Source of the DNA: Candidatus Rifleibacteriota bacterium
GTDB taxonomy: Bacteria > Muiribacteriota > Ozemobacteria > Ozemobacterales > Ozemobacteraceae
Assembly (NCBI GenBank): GCA_012520995.1
Contig: JAAYNI010000033.1
Span: forward strand, 1-64,000
Reading direction: 5' to 3'
Length of the DNA: 64,000 nucleotides
Part shown: in pieces, positions 41,671-48,636 of the stretch
Numbering within the stretch: position 1 is the first letter of the stretch
Layout of the letters: the number at the start of each line of letters is the position of its first letter
Notes under the pieces: generated by a model
Told to the model about the DNA's origin: nothing
What the model saw: only the letters and a program-made list of their open reading frames with translations
Databases searched by the model: none
Position numbers and translations under genes: made by a program

Positions 41671-42141
41671 ATGAAAACGCGCATAATCACACTTTCGCTG
41701 CTATTTGCAGCGGCTCTGTTTTTCGTTAAACCGCAAGCGGATGCTGACAGCAAGCGCTTAGCCAAGGATGGCACAATGCAGCTGGCTGGAGAGAGGGATT
41801 TAAGAGCTTATAAACTTGAAGATTATAAGGTTCCAGGTCACTACGATCGTAATAAAGATGGCAGATATGATTTGATTGCTATTGATAAAAATGGAGACGG
41901 AATTGCTGATTACTGGACTGTAGATAGAGATTTTGACGGTGTTTTCAATGATTACATTTATGACAGGAACTTTGATGGAAAACCTGATCAATGGGAATAT
42001 GATTTAGATTTGGATGGGATTCCCGAAAATATATACTCTGACTCGAACTATGATGGCTTAGCCGATTTAAGAGCTATTTTGAACAAAACAGGGGATACCT
42101 ATACTTGGTTTGGTGAATTTAGTAAGGAAAACGGAATTTAG
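41671..42141 (+). CDS. Secreted protein with tandem Ca-binding (dockerin/EF-hand-like) loops
   Basis: A 156-residue protein with a signal peptide (about 1-25). From residue 60 on it is built of repeated loops of the DxNxDGxxD type: DRNKDGRYD, DKNGDGIADYW, DRDFDGVFNDY, DRNFDGKPDQW, DLDGIPEN and DSNYDGLADL. Spacing is about 10-13 residues, as in dockerin or Ca-stabilised linker modules. There is no catalytic domain. GGAGG lies seven bases before the ATG, and a strong terminator follows, so it is monocistronic. A calcium-dependent structural or adhesive role is likely. Confidence 0.75.
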   Translation: MKTRIITLSLLFAAALFFVKPQADADSKRLAKDGTMQLAGERDLRAYKLEDYKVPGHYDRNKDGRYDLIAIDKNGDGIADYWTVDRDFDGVFNDYIYDRNFDGKPDQWEYDLDLDGIPENIYSDSNYDGLADLRAILNKTGDTYTWFGEFSKENGI

Positions 42142-42195: not shown

Positions 42196-42337
42196 TTCAT
42201 TATTTTTAAAGAAACAGGTTTTATGATAGAATACCCCCTGCTTGATTCTTCTGTAGATCACGTTGGTTTTTTGCCAATTTATTTCCGACAGTGTACATTC
42301 TGCAGAGAAAGCATAATATAATTGCAAAGCTGTGCTT

Positions 42338-43108
42338 ATGGAAAAATATACTTTGTCCCTTCATCACTATTTGTCTTTTGTTGTAACTCTTTTTGGCTCT
42401 TTGCTTGGAAGTTTTTCTAATGTGGTTGTTTTTCGTTCTGCTGAGTCCAGATCTGTGATTTTTCCTCCGTCGGCTTGCCGCAGTTGCAATCACAAGCTTT
42501 CTCCTCTTGATTTGATACCGGTATTCGGATGGATTTTTTTAGGCGGAGCTTGCAGATATTGCAAAGAACCGATTTCTCCCCAATACCCTCTTGTTGAAGC
42601 GTTTATGGCCTTTATAACAGGCTTGTCATTTTATAAAACAGGCCCCGGCCTTAATTTTGTTTTGGTTTCTGGATTTGCGGCTATATGGTTTGTGGCCTCA
42701 GTTGTTTTTGTCAGACAGGAACAAAAAAAATATTCGCCATTTTTGTGGGCAGCTGTTTATGCCAGTCTTTTATTGCGTCCACTTTTGCCTGGCATATCTT
42801 TTAATTCAAAAGTTTCTGCTATATATACTGGCGCTTTCTTTTTTGCCTTGCTTGTTGCTTTGATTGCTATGAGCAAAAAAGATTTTCACGAATATTTTTC
42901 CAAGGCTGCTCTATTATATATACTTTTGCTTGCTTCTCCAGGGCTTGCTTACTTTTGGATTGCTGTAGCCATTTCTGCTATAATTTGGTTTGCAGAACGC
43001 TTTGAAACTCAGGCAAAACATGGAGTGAAAGCTTTCTTTGCCCTCAACATTGTTTATATAATAATTTTTATGTTTAAAATGCCACACTTTTTCTCTTTGA
43101 ATTTCTAG
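42338..43108 (+). CDS. Prepilin-peptidase-like protein lacking the catalytic Asp motifs
   Basis: A 256-residue polytopic protein (ATG at 42338; a GTG six bases upstream is possible). The N-terminal part is a good prepilin-peptidase/methyltransferase domain: GSFSNVVVFR, then CRSC and CRYC pairs (Cys 47/50/72/75) with SPLDLIPVFGWIFLGGACRY and QYPLVEA. The C-terminal membrane part should hold two Asp residues, in a D-x6-PD-like loop and in GxGD. Neither is visible: the region reads VFVRQEQKKYSPFLWA, and no GxGD follows. It may be a non-proteolytic methylase-type or scaffold paralogue, or a very divergent peptidase. The active enzyme for the pilin at 31731 may be elsewhere. Confidence 0.7.
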   Translation: MEKYTLSLHHYLSFVVTLFGSLLGSFSNVVVFRSAESRSVIFPPSACRSCNHKLSPLDLIPVFGWIFLGGACRYCKEPISPQYPLVEAFMAFITGLSFYKTGPGLNFVLVSGFAAIWFVASVVFVRQEQKKYSPFLWAAVYASLLLRPLLPGISFNSKVSAIYTGAFFFALLVALIAMSKKDFHEYFSKAALLYILLLASPGLAYFWIAVAISAIIWFAERFETQAKHGVKAFFALNIVYIIIFMFKMPHFFSLNF

Positions 43109-43166: not shown

Positions 43167-44201
43167 ATGTATCCCAAAACGCTCTTGGATTATGACTCAG
43201 ATACTTTGAAAGCATTGCTTGCCGAGCTTGGCATGCCTTCATTTAGATATAAGCAAATTTATGACTGGATTTTTAAAAAGTTCGTTTTCTCATTTGATCG
43301 CATGACAAATCTTTCTCTGAAAGAACGGGTAATGCTGAATGAAAATTTTAACGGTGTGGTGCCTCAGCCCGCCTCTGTCTTCAAAGATCGGGATGACGGT
43401 TCCTTGAAGATTCTCTATCGCCTGCATGATGATAATGCGGTTGAAGCGGTGGCTATTCCAGCTGAAGACGGTCGAATGACCTTTTGCCTTTCAACTCAAG
43501 TAGGCTGTGCGGTTCGATGCCCATTTTGTAAAACAGGAGAATCTGGTCTGATACGTAATCTCACTGTACAAGAAATAGTTACGCAGCTGATAATTCTTTT
43601 AAGATATACGGGTAAAAAACCGACTAATATTGTTTATATGGGGATGGGGGAGCCCTTTAATAATAGAGAAGCTCTCTTTGGTTCAATAGATGTTTTTACC
43701 GATCCTTCGGGACTTGGTATGGCCACAAGGCGCATTACTATTTCCACTTCGGGCGTAATTCCAGGGATAGAAGAGCTTTCTGCAAGGGAAGGCGAAGTTA
43801 ATCTCGCGGTTTCTCTTCACACTGCCGATAACGACTTGCGCAATAAACTTGTTCCCATAAACAAAACCTATCCGCTTGATAAACTTCGCAGAGCTATTCA
43901 AAACTATACAGATCTGACTGGCAGAAGAGTAACTCTAGAAGTTTCTTTGTTAAAAGATGTAAATGACGGTTATCATGATGCTATGAATATAGCTTCTTTC
44001 TGTGAGGGAATGCTTGTGCATGTGAATCTCATAAGATTTAATTATTACAAAGGCAGTCCTTATAGACCTGCGGCTGAACTCACAGAGAAAAATTTCCGAA
44101 AAGCTCTTAAAAAAGAGGGGGTTTCAGTGACTGTAAGAAAATCAGCAGGGAGCAATATAATGGCCGCATGCGGTCAGCTATCGGATAGGTCAGATGGCTA
44201 A
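43167..44201 (+). CDS. rlmN: 23S rRNA/tRNA adenine-C2 methyltransferase RlmN
   Basis: A 344-residue radical-SAM enzyme. The iron-sulfur Cys are C114, C118 and C121 in CAVRCPFC, and the C-terminal AACGQL contains the Cys that carries the methyl group. MGMGEPF is the conserved SAM-site motif. It methylates A2503 of 23S rRNA and A37 of some tRNAs. AAGGAG lies five bases before the ATG. Its stop overlaps the start of the PASTA gene by eight bases. rlmN at the head of a PASTA/kinase/rpe cluster is the layout of the PrkC locus in Gram-positives. Confidence 0.96.
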   Translation: MYPKTLLDYDSDTLKALLAELGMPSFRYKQIYDWIFKKFVFSFDRMTNLSLKERVMLNENFNGVVPQPASVFKDRDDGSLKILYRLHDDNAVEAVAIPAEDGRMTFCLSTQVGCAVRCPFCKTGESGLIRNLTVQEIVTQLIILLRYTGKKPTNIVYMGMGEPFNNREALFGSIDVFTDPSGLGMATRRITISTSGVIPGIEELSAREGEVNLAVSLHTADNDLRNKLVPINKTYPLDKLRRAIQNYTDLTGRRVTLEVSLLKDVNDGYHDAMNIASFCEGMLVHVNLIRFNYYKGSPYRPAAELTEKNFRKALKKEGVSVTVRKSAGSNIMAACGQLSDRSDG

Positions 44202-45420
44202 GAAAAAAAAGGATCAAACTTGTCTTGCGGTTCTAATTAAAATCGCCATAATAATGGTGGTTGTGCTGGCTTTGATAGCTGGAGCTACCTTCCTTTTATT
44301 CAGCAAGTTGGATGAATATTTTAATCGCGGTGAAAACGTTATAGTTCCGGATTTTCGCGGAATGCATATAGACGAGGCGGTAAAAATTAAGCCTCCTGGA
44401 ATGATTCTTGACAGAAAAGATACTCAATATAATGATCAATATCCAAAGGATTATGTGACAGCTCAGTTCCCTGAGCCTGGCACGATTGTAAAGCCTGACA
44501 AAAGGGTTTCTCTTTCTGTCTCACTGGGCTCACAAAAGGTTGTAGTCCCTTCTCTCAAAAACAGAAGCTTGAGGGAAGTAGGAGTGGCTTTGATCAATAG
44601 CCGCTTAAAACATGGAAAGAGCGCTTACGTATATTCAGACAGCGCTCCGCATAATGCAGTTGTAAGCCAATCTCCGCTGGCGGGGGAAGAATATCCGGTA
44701 AATCGCGATGTCGACTTGCTTGTCAGTTTGGGAAAGGCTCCTAGGGGGGTAATATTGCCAAACCTTTCAGGGAGTCCTCTTGAAGAGGCAAGGAAAAGAA
44801 CCGCTTCTGCAGGTTTGAGAGCTGGTCGAGTTTATTATAAATATGAGCCTGGGGCTGCAAAATATGTGGTTTTATCCAGCGATCCTGCTCCATATTCGGC
44901 TCTGAGACAAGGAGATACTGTAAACTTTCTTGTTTCATCGGGTTCTTCAGGGCTTGTTTCAAGCGATGCTGATATAGCCAAATTTGAAATAATGAGCAAG
45001 CCTGTTTTTCTGCCTATTTTAAAGGCTGAGCCGCCTCTGATTATAGAAGAAAGCAAGGAAAAAGAAACAGAAGTGAAGTCTTCGGATAAAAGAACTGAAC
45101 TTTTCGAAACTTTTTCAGACAGTTTTACAACATCATCACAGAAAACTTCTATCGAAACGACAGAAAAATTTTCTTCAAATGATCTTACCGTTGTGCAAGC
45201 CGAAGAAAAACGTGAAAAGGAAATTAACTTCATTGTGCCTGATGGATTCATGGCTAAGGAGGTTAAATTTATACTTGTTTCTCCAGCAGGAAGAAAATTA
45301 ATTTACTCAAAAACGCTAAAACCTTTAGAACTTGTTAAAGTTAAGGTACCTGTTCTGCCGAATAGTAAAGTGCAGATATATATAAATGACGTTCCAGTGG
45401 AAGAACGCAAAATAGATTGA
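44194..45420 (+). CDS. Membrane-anchored PASTA-domain protein
   Basis: A 408-residue protein: a basic N-terminus, one membrane helix (about 12-36) and three PASTA domains outside (about 49-112, 113-181, 187-250; strand/turn pattern VIVPDFRGMHIDEAV and VSLSVSLG). A Glu/Ser/Thr-rich linker and a C-terminal beta domain (about 345-408) complete it. PASTA domains bind peptidoglycan fragments or muropeptides and normally sit on the C-terminus of PknB/PrkC kinases. Here the sensor is a separate protein, followed with a four-base overlap of frames by the kinase-like gene. Confidence 0.88.
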   Translation: MAKKKKDQTCLAVLIKIAIIMVVVLALIAGATFLLFSKLDEYFNRGENVIVPDFRGMHIDEAVKIKPPGMILDRKDTQYNDQYPKDYVTAQFPEPGTIVKPDKRVSLSVSLGSQKVVVPSLKNRSLREVGVALINSRLKHGKSAYVYSDSAPHNAVVSQSPLAGEEYPVNRDVDLLVSLGKAPRGVILPNLSGSPLEEARKRTASAGLRAGRVYYKYEPGAAKYVVLSSDPAPYSALRQGDTVNFLVSSGSSGLVSSDADIAKFEIMSKPVFLPILKAEPPLIIEESKEKETEVKSSDKRTELFETFSDSFTTSSQKTSIETTEKFSSNDLTVVQAEEKREKEINFIVPDGFMAKEVKFILVSPAGRKLIYSKTLKPLELVKVKVPVLPNSKVQIYINDVPVEERKID

Positions 45421-45437
45421 TATGGAGGCTATTCTCA

Positions 45438-46634
45438 ATGCCAGAACAGGTTATCAACGGCCGTTACAAGACGGAAGAGGTGTTCGCCGAAAGCTATATT
45501 TACGAAGTTTATAAGGCGAAAGAAATTGAAACTGGCACGGATGTCGTCTTGAAGCTGATGAAGTCCGTGCAGGCTGAAAATACCGACAGAGTACGTATGC
45601 TCAGTTGCGAAGTGGCCAAATTTGCCGCATTTTCTCACGAGGGAGTTGCGGAGATTTTAGATTTTGATCTCTGGGAAGGCCGTCCTTACGTTGTTACACC
45701 TTTGATAAATGGGGTTCCTTTAAACGAGGTTATAGAAAACGGATCCTTGAGTTTTACTGACGCTCTTGATATAACTAGACAACTTACGGATGTTTTAGAG
45801 TCCGCAAGTGAACAGGGAATTGAATCAAGAACCGTAAAACTTTCCAACGTTTTGGTAGATGCGGATGGCAAAATCAAACTGCTTTCTTTCACGCACCCTA
45901 GATTGAAGTTGGCTTCAGCAGCTTCCAGAAATATAAAAGCTGCTGTTCATTCCGACCTTTTCTTTCTTGGAACCACTATGTTTGAGCTTTTGACAGGAGA
46001 ATCACCTCTTAGAAAACGAGGCGGCTTGAATGAGCTTTGGGATATGAAATTGGAGCGCATGCTTAGAATCAATCATCCTGAGCTTACTCCGAAACAAATT
46101 GAAAACACAGTGGGAACAGTTGCTAAAACCTTGAGCAAAAACATATCTTTGCGTTTTGACAATTATACTGAATTAAAAGAAAGCCTTTCAGCTCTAGGAC
46201 TTGCTAAAGTTATAGCTGAAACGGCTCGGGAAGAAGAAAGAGAGCTTTCTATGGCTTCTCAGGTGGTCGACGCTTTGCAGGCAAGCGTAGCTGCTTTAGA
46301 TAATCGCAGGCTTGCAGCTGAGCTTTCTATGCCGATGCTGAAGCCAGACAAAAATTGTTCGAATATAGCAGGGAGCCTCAAACTTTCTGTTGTTAATGGT
46401 TCCGCGGCTATTCAAAATACGCAAAGTATTGCGGAAAGTGTGCCAAACAGAGCTATAACACAAAACGCTCATGCTCACCTTAGACTTGTTAAACCTCTGG
46501 AGTCTTCTTGCAGAAGAGCTCTGGCTTCATCTTCAAGTGCTTCTTGGGAGCAGGAAACTCCGCTTTATAAAAGTTTCGCTTTTATAATAGGCATGCTTTT
46601 GCTTGTAATGGCTCTTTTGATACTCTTCTGGTAA
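45438..46634 (+). CDS. Ser/Thr protein kinase-like protein, predicted pseudokinase with C-terminal membrane anchor
   Basis: A 398-residue protein; the ATG at 45438 is chosen because GGAGG lies nine bases before it. The kinase fold is visible: Lys39 in VLKLMK, Glu58 in CEVAKF, and the F-helix motif SDLFFLGTTMFELLTGESPL. But the catalytic HRD is S-R-T (130-132) while the following K134 and N137 remain, and DFG is S-F-T (150-152). The Gly loop is also weak. Both catalytic Asp are missing, so it is a pseudokinase. A linker of about 110 residues leads to a tail membrane helix (about 378-398). It pairs with the PASTA protein upstream and sits just before rpe. Confidence 0.85.
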   Translation: MPEQVINGRYKTEEVFAESYIYEVYKAKEIETGTDVVLKLMKSVQAENTDRVRMLSCEVAKFAAFSHEGVAEILDFDLWEGRPYVVTPLINGVPLNEVIENGSLSFTDALDITRQLTDVLESASEQGIESRTVKLSNVLVDADGKIKLLSFTHPRLKLASAASRNIKAAVHSDLFFLGTTMFELLTGESPLRKRGGLNELWDMKLERMLRINHPELTPKQIENTVGTVAKTLSKNISLRFDNYTELKESLSALGLAKVIAETAREEERELSMASQVVDALQASVAALDNRRLAAELSMPMLKPDKNCSNIAGSLKLSVVNGSAAIQNTQSIAESVPNRAITQNAHAHLRLVKPLESSCRRALASSSSASWEQETPLYKSFAFIIGMLLLVMALLILFW

Positions 46635-46640
46635 GCAGAC

Positions 46641-47300
46641 ATGAAAAAAAATATACTTATAGCTCCTTCTATCCTTTCCGCCGATTTTTCCAATATGGCT
46701 TCAGAGCTTGCTGTAATAAAAGACTCAGGGGCTGATTGGATTCATGTTGATGTCATGGATGGACATTTTGTTCCGAATATGACTTTTGGTCCTCCGCTTA
46801 TAAAAAGTTACAGGAAAAACTCGGACATGATTTTTGACGTTCATCTCATGACGGAAGCTCCAGAGCGTTTGCTTGAGTCTTATAAAGATGCTGGAGCAGA
46901 CAGACTTACTTTTCATGTTGAGGCTTGCCGTCATTCTCACCGTTATCTTAGAGCAATCAGAGATATGGGATTAGCTTCAGGAATCACACTCAATCCGCAA
47001 ACTCCTGCGAGTGCCGTGGAGTATCTCCTTGAGGAATGTGATCAGGTTCTGATTATGAGTGTAAATCCCGGCTTTGGCGGACAAAGTTTTATTGAGCCGG
47101 TTTTACAAAAAATTCAAGTTGTTAAAAAAATGATAAAAGATAGAGGCTTGAAAACCCTGATTCAGGTTGACGGAGGAGTGAATTCAGAAAATTCGCAAAG
47201 GATTTGTGATGCAGGTGCCGATGTATTAGTTATGGGTTCAGCTTTTTTTAACGAAAAAGATAAAAAGAGCTTTGTAAATAAGATAAAAGGAACCCTTTAA
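46641..47300 (+). CDS. rpe: Ribulose-phosphate 3-epimerase
   Basis: A 219-residue TIM-barrel epimerase of normal length. IAPSILSADFSNMASELAVI is the family start, DWIHVDVMDGHFVPNMTFGP holds the metal-binding His/Asp, and SVNPGFGGQSF plus VDGGVN are the phosphate-binding motifs. It interconverts ribulose-5-phosphate and xylulose-5-phosphate in the pentose phosphate pathway. It follows the pseudokinase by six bases. Its position downstream of a kinase gene matches the Gram-positive prkC-rsgA-rpe order, without rsgA. Confidence 0.97.
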   Translation: MKKNILIAPSILSADFSNMASELAVIKDSGADWIHVDVMDGHFVPNMTFGPPLIKSYRKNSDMIFDVHLMTEAPERLLESYKDAGADRLTFHVEACRHSHRYLRAIRDMGLASGITLNPQTPASAVEYLLEECDQVLIMSVNPGFGGQSFIEPVLQKIQVVKKMIKDRGLKTLIQVDGGVNSENSQRICDAGADVLVMGSAFFNEKDKKSFVNKIKGTL

Positions 47301-47319
47301 TACAATATGAGGCAGTGTT

Positions 47320-48636
47320 ATGCAGGCAAAAAATCCAACGGACAGAACAAACTCCGAAGATACCAAGCTTTTGAAAAGGCTTGCTAAACTTTATACCAGC
47401 AGCGGAAATCATAGTGAAGCCTTAGAAGTTTATGACAAACTTTTAAAGGAATTTCCTGGCGATAGGGCGCTTTTAATAGAAAAGGCAGATTGCCTGATGG
47501 CAGCTGGCCGTATTTTAGATGCGGAAGAGTGTCTTGAACGTGTTTTGGAAATAAAGCCTGGTGATCCTAGAGCCTTTTTGAGTTACTCAAAACTTTACGG
47601 GGCTATGCATGACAGGGACAAAGAAATTTCTTTCCTGATGCTGGCTGTCAATTCAGTCCCTGCAGCTTGGAAGTTGAGATTGGCTCTTGCGGCTAAATTG
47701 AGAGAATATGGTGATCTTAAAGGTGCTCAAGTCCAATATCTTGAGGTGCTTAAAATTAAGCCTCACTTGGAAACAGCCAAGTTTGACTTGGGGCTTATTT
47801 ACATGGGACAAGATAAATTTGATGAAGCCGCTAGAGAATTTTCAGAGATTATCACCAATAATCCGAGCGCTTTTGATGCTCACTTTAATTTGGGCAATCT
47901 TCATTTCAGAACCGGCAAATATGATGCCGCTATAGCTCATTTTACAGTAGCTGTTCGCAAAAATGATTTAGCTGCAAAATCATCTTATTTGATGGGACAA
48001 TGTTTCTTAAAACTTCAAGATTTTGACAGTGCTATAGTTACATATGAAAGGCTTATAGATTCTGAGCCCGATAATATTTCTTTTTTGAAAAGTCTGGCGG
48101 AGGCCTATGTGGAAGCCAAAGAGTTTGATATGTCTTATGATGTTTATGAGAGATTGGTCGAACTTCAGCCGAAGAGCAGCGAGTTTCGCCTAAGGCTAGC
48201 TGAACATCAAAATAGATTCGGCAAACACAGTTCAGCCAAAATGACTCTCAAAGCTCTTTTTCAGATTTCTCCAGGACATATTGGCGGTCACAGACTTTTG
48301 GGAGAAGTCTATGCGGCAAACTCTGAGTATAAGGCGGCTGCAGAAGAGTTTGAGCGAATTTTGTTGGTTAATCCGGCATATTCTGATGTTTATATTTCTC
48401 TTGGAAAGGTTTATAGAGCAACGGGCAGATATGAAGATGAACTCAGTGTTTTAAGAAAAGCCTATGCTCTTGGAAATAAAGAGCCTTCTTATCTCCTTCG
48501 TTTAGGGGAATTAGAGTATGACAAGGGCAACGAGGCTTGCTTCAACAAGTTTGAAAGGTTAATAGAAATAGCCCCTGAATCGAATTCTGCCAAAGAAGCC
48601 GAGTATTATTTGAGACACGGGCTGCAAGCAGCCTGA
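47320..48636 (+). CDS. TPR-repeat protein
   Basis: A 438-residue protein made of about ten TPR units, for example KLYTSSGNHSEALEVYDKLL, DLGLIYMGQDKFDEAAREFS and NLGNLHFRTGKYDAAIAHF. There is no signal peptide or membrane helix, so it is probably cytoplasmic. It is a protein-interaction scaffold of unknown target. It follows rpe by 19 bases with a GAGG ribosome site and ends at a module C repeat, so it is the last gene of the rlmN-PASTA-pseudokinase-rpe transcript and a plausible partner of the pseudokinase. Confidence 0.85.
   Translation: MQAKNPTDRTNSEDTKLLKRLAKLYTSSGNHSEALEVYDKLLKEFPGDRALLIEKADCLMAAGRILDAEECLERVLEIKPGDPRAFLSYSKLYGAMHDRDKEISFLMLAVNSVPAAWKLRLALAAKLREYGDLKGAQVQYLEVLKIKPHLETAKFDLGLIYMGQDKFDEAAREFSEIITNNPSAFDAHFNLGNLHFRTGKYDAAIAHFTVAVRKNDLAAKSSYLMGQCFLKLQDFDSAIVTYERLIDSEPDNISFLKSLAEAYVEAKEFDMSYDVYERLVELQPKSSEFRLRLAEHQNRFGKHSSAKMTLKALFQISPGHIGGHRLLGEVYAANSEYKAAAEEFERILLVNPAYSDVYISLGKVYRATGRYEDELSVLRKAYALGNKEPSYLLRLGELEYDKGNEACFNKFERLIEIAPESNSAKEAEYYLRHGLQAA

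Follow-up and report, generated by a model that had tools for sequence, protein, structure and literature searches.

A PASTA protein and a tail-anchored pseudokinase between rlmN and rpe as probable remains of a PrkC-type kinase in Candidatus Riflebacteria

The window (the whole stretch of 64,000 nucleotides that was analyzed) encodes, between rlmN and rpe, a PASTA protein and a kinase-like protein that has lost both catalytic aspartates. By anatomy and evolutionary origin, these two genes are almost certainly old remnants of a PASTA kinase of the PrkC type, and the explanation slightly favored overall is that these remnants have been kept as two membrane proteins that serve as a non-catalytic binding sensor. 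In Gram-positive bacteria, PASTA kinases act as regulators linked to the cell wall and are drug targets, and the extent of their non-catalytic role is unsettled. No published description of the pair was found in the open-licence PubMed Central literature. The host genome comprises 2.84 Mb in 101 contigs and is 96% complete; the comparisons reported here draw on a sample of 40 genomes of Candidatus Riflebacteria and relatives such as Muiribacterium, grouped in families f1 to f8, of which f1 is the family of the window.

Organization of the locus

The genes for RlmN, the PASTA protein, the pseudokinase, Rpe, and a TPR protein all lie on the forward strand and either overlap, as rlmN and the PASTA gene do by 8 bases, or are separated by gaps of no more than 20 bases (Table 1); they therefore probably form a single operon. 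The first-pass annotation of this DNA had read the sensor and kinase-like parts of PrkC as separate genes between rlmN and rpe, and this arrangement bears that reading out. The start of the kinase-like reading frame was placed at the ATG at 45438, which has an upstream GGAGG and matches the start of its relatives in the alignment; a TTG at 45417 is the alternative.

Neither prpC nor rsgA is present at the locus, as had been claimed. For rsgA this extends to the host genome, in which no match to TIGR00157 was detected and the best match to the RsgA_GTPase domain was YlqF; across the phylum, rsgA scored above cut-off in 22 of 40 genomes, distant from the locus of the pair. PP2C phosphatase genes are present in the host genome, away from the pair.

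Two genes on the rlmN side of the operon are recorded as observations in their own right. A prepilin-peptidase-like protein (42332-43108) carries an N-terminal CxxC...CxxC domain (PF06750) without the A24 catalytic aspartate motifs, and the GxGDxK motif is lacking too in 14 homologs encoded beside the same operon; the host genome encodes two separate PF01478 peptidases. The operon may have a second conserved pseudo-enzyme as its neighbor. A small, apparently secreted protein (41671-42141) has repeated DxDxDG-type motifs that are possibly calcium-binding, its Pfam match being weak and below cut-off.

Table 1. Coordinates of features at the rlmN-rpe locus, given as positions in the window.
Feature	Position	Strand	Evidence or remark
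rlmN	43167-44201	+	23S rRNA/tRNA methyltransferase; TIGR00048, 335.7 bits, above cut-off; upstream anchor of the prkC-type locus
PASTA protein (408 aa)	44194-45420	+	PF03793, 102 bits in three stretches; NF033483; AF2; Foldseek
Three PASTA domains	44338-44523, 44539-44727, 44749-44940 (span 44338-44940)	+	
C-terminal Ig-like beta domain, conserved	45214-45414	+	Identity in f1; AF2; Foldseek
Pseudokinase (398 aa)	45438-46634	+	Cytoplasmic kinase fold, then linker, then C-terminal TM tail
SRT at the HRD site	45825-45833	+	Catalytic Asp replaced by Thr; HRD Arg retained
SFT at the DFG site	45885-45893	+	Metal-binding Asp replaced by Ser; Phe retained
Predicted 52-residue helix 3' of the kinase domain (residues 243-294)	46164-46319	+	AF2
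C-terminal TM tail (residues 380-398, ending in LLILFW)	46575-46631	+	Identity in f1; AF2
rpe (ribulose-phosphate 3-epimerase)	46641-47300	+	PF00834, 264 bits; downstream anchor of the locus
TPR protein	47320-48636	+	Operon member in f1; outside the phylum-wide conserved core

Probable derivation from a PASTA kinase

Both halves of the pair are homologous to the PASTA Ser/Thr kinases (PrkC, Stk1, StkP, PknB; NF033483). The two proteins align to separate parts of the NF033483 model without overlap, the pseudokinase to positions 2-292 and the PASTA protein to positions 327-563, and the two genes score 94.5 and 115.7 bits against a curated cut-off of 450 bits; thus, instead of a kinase domain, a TM helix, and PASTA repeats in one polypeptide scoring above that cut-off, two genes are found. 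The sole Pfam match of the pseudokinase is to a kinase (Pkinase, 55.6 bits). When its profile was compared with the PDB, the 18 best chains were those of Stk1/PrkC, StkP, PknB, and PknA (110-133 bits), followed by PLK4 at 77 bits, and a fold search with its AF2 model placed PknB, PknA, and Stk1 at the top; by both searches the kinase domain is nearest to the PASTA-kinase group.

The PASTA protein consists of a brief cytoplasmic start, a single N-terminal TM helix, three PASTA domains, a variable linker, and an Ig-like C-terminal domain, and the prediction puts its N-terminus inside and its PASTA and Ig-like portions on the outer side of the inner membrane. The top Foldseek match of its AF2 model is 3py9, which comprises the complete extracellular part of S. 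aureus PrkC (4.5e-18, 372 columns), so the conserved last 67 residues likely form a PrkC-type Ig-like domain. No other part of the protein is as conserved; the mean pairwise identity of this domain within f1 is 68%. Extracytoplasmic PASTA repeats and an S. aureus-type Ig-like end were thus both recovered, by PF03793 and by the best fold match, and the plan of three PASTA domains plus an Ig-like domain is common to the PASTA protein and the S. aureus PrkC ectodomain.

The chromosomal site, between rlmN and rpe, is likewise common to prkC and the pair. Family f8 has the order priA-def-fmt-rsmB-rlmN-PASTA-pseudokinase-rpe, and the Firmicutes prkC cluster follows the same order (priA-def-fmt-rsmB-rlmN-...-rpe) with the addition of prpC and rsgA. 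The domain order of PrkC itself is kinase, TM helix, PASTA. In contrast, the pair consists of two proteins with two TM helices in PASTA-then-kinase order, has lost the catalytic residues and the activation segment, and adjoins neither a PP2C gene nor rsgA; in C. difficile, prkC is co-transcribed with a phosphatase gene (PMC9674922). Because the PASTA gene precedes the pseudokinase gene and a TM helix is present in both products, one break in an ancestral prkC does not account for the pair; a tandem duplication of prkC, in which copy one lost the kinase and copy two lost the PASTA part, would explain both features, and this is the route that the arrangement suggests. Independent assembly of the pair from parts is the alternative origin.

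No full-length PASTA kinase was detected among the 40 phylum genomes with NF033483 above its cut-off, a search that was positive in control genomes. A 1014-residue protein with three PASTA domains in one genome (G001) was considered as a candidate and rejected, being a secreted PASTA and TPR protein. The host genome is placed in Candidatus Riflebacteria/Ozemobacteria by its relatives. In GTDB genome contigs, on whose named matches the taxon statements made here rest, matches that cover most of the query at >30% identity belong to Candidatus Riflebacteria/Ozemobacteria or to MAGs that are unnamed or oddly named, and Candidatus Muiribacterium halophilum is a more distant member. Outside the phylum, a scan of the same contigs with one peptide pattern, which distant pairs could escape, found no pair beside its matches; these were distant kinases with at most 32% identity, mostly with an intact HRD. 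A phage or mobile origin of the pair was rejected, as a viral scan returned no relative.

Loss of catalytic residues under purifying selection

The substitutions of HRD by SRT and of DFG by SFT are as the first-pass annotation described, and the damage is greater than it stated. The glycine loop is gone, with FAESYIYEV in its place, and the DFG position is followed by the alphaF Asp after 23 residues, versus ~40 in S. aureus Stk1 (4eqm), so that the P+1/APE region is absent; the activation segment is ~17 residues shorter than in Stk1, and the APE motif is missing.

These losses are not peculiar to the host genome. An alignable pseudokinase adjoins a PASTA gene in 37 of the 40 genomes, and the two genes are adjacent in every one of the 37 in which both are readable; in a further genome (G002) the PASTA gene is present and the pseudokinase is truncated by the contig end, and the locus was not found in two incomplete genomes (70% and 76% complete). 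The order rlmN-PASTA-pseudokinase-rpe occurs in 23 of the 23 f1 members with the locus found, and likewise in f2 and f8 within contig reach, while f3, f4, and f7 retain PASTA-pseudokinase-rpe and the pair alone was seen in f5 and f6. Asp occurs at neither catalytic site in any of the 37 pseudokinases: the HRD position is occupied by T, S, N, G, A, I, or H, and the DFG position by S, T, G, N, Q, K, or R. In all 37, the greater part of the activation segment is missing as well. Because they are shared throughout this set, the alignment indicates that the catalytic losses are ancestral and fixed, rather than one copy decaying. It had been proposed beforehand that relatives with intact HRD and DFG motifs would reveal a mere decaying copy; no such relative is present among the 37, and the outcome is the opposite.

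Bacterial pseudokinases are defined by the loss of at least one of the beta3 Lys, the HRD Asp, and the DFG Asp (PMC12599244), and two of the three are gone in all 37 proteins. Other positions have been kept. The DFG Phe and F176 are invariant (37/37), the HRD Arg is retained in 35 of 37, and the alphaF Asp is retained in 35, with Glu in the remaining 2. The beta3 Lys (Lys39) is retained except in f7 and f8, the latter having Arg; the alphaC Glu (Glu58) is retained except in f7, where Lys and Glu are both changed or mixed; and the catalytic-loop Asn (Asn137) is invariant in f1. Motif loss alone is no proof of inactivity, since E. coli YegI is reportedly a kinase without the conserved motifs (reference 99 of PMC9674922). 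It is conceivable that the pseudokinase still binds nucleotide, or performs new chemistry, via Lys39, Glu58, and Asn137, with SidJ and SelO as named precedents (PMC12599244), yet the loss throughout of the metal and base aspartates, the glycine loop, and the P+1/APE region, together with the persistence of the gene in f7 without the beta3 Lys, makes this distinctly unlikely.

Pairwise dN/dS of the pseudokinase is ~0.1 (0.08-0.15 in most comparisons with usable dS, by a simple Nei-Gojobori method in which many dS values were near saturation); in genus g9 it reaches up to 0.31, and that of rpe is raised equally there. Values of this size indicate that the pseudokinase is under purifying selection and is not decaying, and conservation of the pair implies that it is functional. 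The chance that these are a decaying copy or a pair of pseudogenes is practically negligible: the loss of catalytic residues would fit that reading, but the frames are intact in 37 genomes across f1-f8, invariant positions and gene order have been conserved, and decay of a single copy is refuted by the relatives and by dN/dS.

A possible wall sensor that signals by binding

Since selection keeps the pair despite the loss of catalytic residues, it probably signals by binding and not by phosphorylation. A specific mechanism, a non-catalytic two-protein wall sensor, is given about even chances. Outside the inner membrane, the PASTA protein would detect precursors or fragments of the cell wall. 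Muropeptides or lipid II are the ligands of known PASTA ectodomains (PMC6428115), and by this analogy muropeptide sensing may be ascribed to the PASTA protein. Contact between its conserved TM helix and that of the tail-anchored pseudokinase would join the two proteins, and binding of a wall ligand, or clustering, would shift the position or the partner binding of the pseudokinase, which would act as a scaffold or allosteric adaptor that itself phosphorylates nothing. Candidates for the output would be an envelope enzyme, intact kinases encoded elsewhere, or, with the least support, the TPR protein.

The pseudokinase is predicted to be cytoplasmic with a TM tail at its extreme C-terminus; in the AF2 model most of the kinase domain has a pLDDT >90, the long helix that follows has ~70-90 along most of its length and <50 at its end, and the helix of the tail has 94-95. 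In f1 the tail shows 57% identity, matching the kinase domain, versus 14% for shuffled-residue tails and 24% for the preceding linker, a conservation that in part reflects relatedness. As the tail is far more conserved than its own linker, beyond relatedness alone, it likely makes a specific helix contact, for which the TM helix of the neighboring PASTA protein is the natural candidate. The site that aligns with N-lobe residue D76 of PknB, a known dimer-interface residue (PMC12599244), is Asp in 35 of 37 and Glu in 2, so the fold may still dimerize.

The PASTA protein could instead act alone, through wall binding or as a division-site marker, leaving the pseudokinase as a structural anchor only. 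In f1 its folded PASTA and Ig-like parts show, overall, somewhat higher conservation (52-68%) than the pseudokinase domain (54-56%); the pseudokinase is nevertheless retained at every readable locus, its core residues and TM tail being conserved, and this reading is very improbable.

Candidate partners

An active PknB had been suggested as a target to search for elsewhere, and the host genome does encode two intact kinases, one at C2:30738 (HRDVKPSN/DFG/SPE) and one at C17:29603 (HKDIKPHN/DFG), with PP2C genes nearby. The region C2:29238-33011 contains the active-looking kinase beside an FHA and MinD/CpaE-like protein (as read from sequence), and a PP2C gene lies ~50 bases from the end of the kinase. 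In M. tuberculosis, the phosphorylated tail of MviN recruits an FHA protein (PMC12599244). A comparable arrangement, in which the pseudokinase would be the allosteric partner or substrate of a catalytic kinase encoded elsewhere and its phosphorylated tail would recruit the FHA protein, draws on these neighbors and this precedent, on the D76-equivalent residue, and on a residue, mostly Lys or Arg, that precedes an invariant Tyr. However, strong conservation of the C2 kinase (59-77% identity over the kinase domain) is confined to part of f1, the genomes G013 (93% complete) and G017 (91%) having only distant matches, and the poorly conserved linker of the pseudokinase is the region in which phospho-sites would be expected. 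The arrangement is therefore considered unlikely, and obligate pairing with the C2 kinase was rejected, as even within f1 not every genome has this kinase. Kinases are greatly expanded in parts of the phylum (f5/f6 genomes): G031 (8.4 Mb) has >300 first-look protein kinase candidates, and f5 genomes have ~80-110.

The first-pass annotation correctly noted that a TPR gene follows, and its account of a split PrkC locus with real catalytic losses and a conserved functional pair stands; its proposal that the TPR protein is the signaling partner is weak. The TPR gene follows rpe in f1, one genome of which has 2.7 kb inserted between the two, the pair occurs without it in f2-f6 and f8, and f7 has a different TPR protein at the locus. 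A fixed partnership was rejected on this distribution, and it is distinctly unlikely that the TPR protein is the main partner.

Comparison with other membrane-linked pseudokinases

MviN/Rv3910 (ActPs3) of M. tuberculosis is likewise a membrane-linked pseudokinase with a deletion in the activation loop and a role in cell-wall control. The pseudokinase differs in that it is not fused to a MurJ-type flippase (398 aa with one C-terminal TM helix), has a separate PASTA protein as partner, and mostly retains the beta3 Lys, and the fold search ranked PknB, PknA, and Stk1 above MviN. EssB/YukC of type VII secretion is also a cytoplasmic pseudokinase scaffold with a single TM helix and a shortened activation loop; however, the neighbors here are rlmN, PASTA, rpe, and TPR genes and not type VII secretion genes, and EssB/YukC was absent from the 50 best fold matches of the pseudokinase. 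The motifs GLW, VALT, and HRD-N with DFG deletion, published by O'Boyle et al. for seven bSTK families rich in pseudokinases, do not fit the pseudokinase when compared by eye.

Implications

That the whole phylum exchanged its PASTA kinase for a non-catalytic receptor made of two proteins, with a PASTA sensor that passes its signal to a tail-anchored pseudokinase, is a tentative proposal, put slightly below even odds. Retention of the sensor and the kinase fold over the lifetime of the phylum after the loss of catalysis amounts to a natural experiment, and what a PASTA receptor achieves via binding alone could be studied cleanly in this pair. If the proposal is true, the PrkC kinase scaffold can carry information about the wall without phosphorylation.
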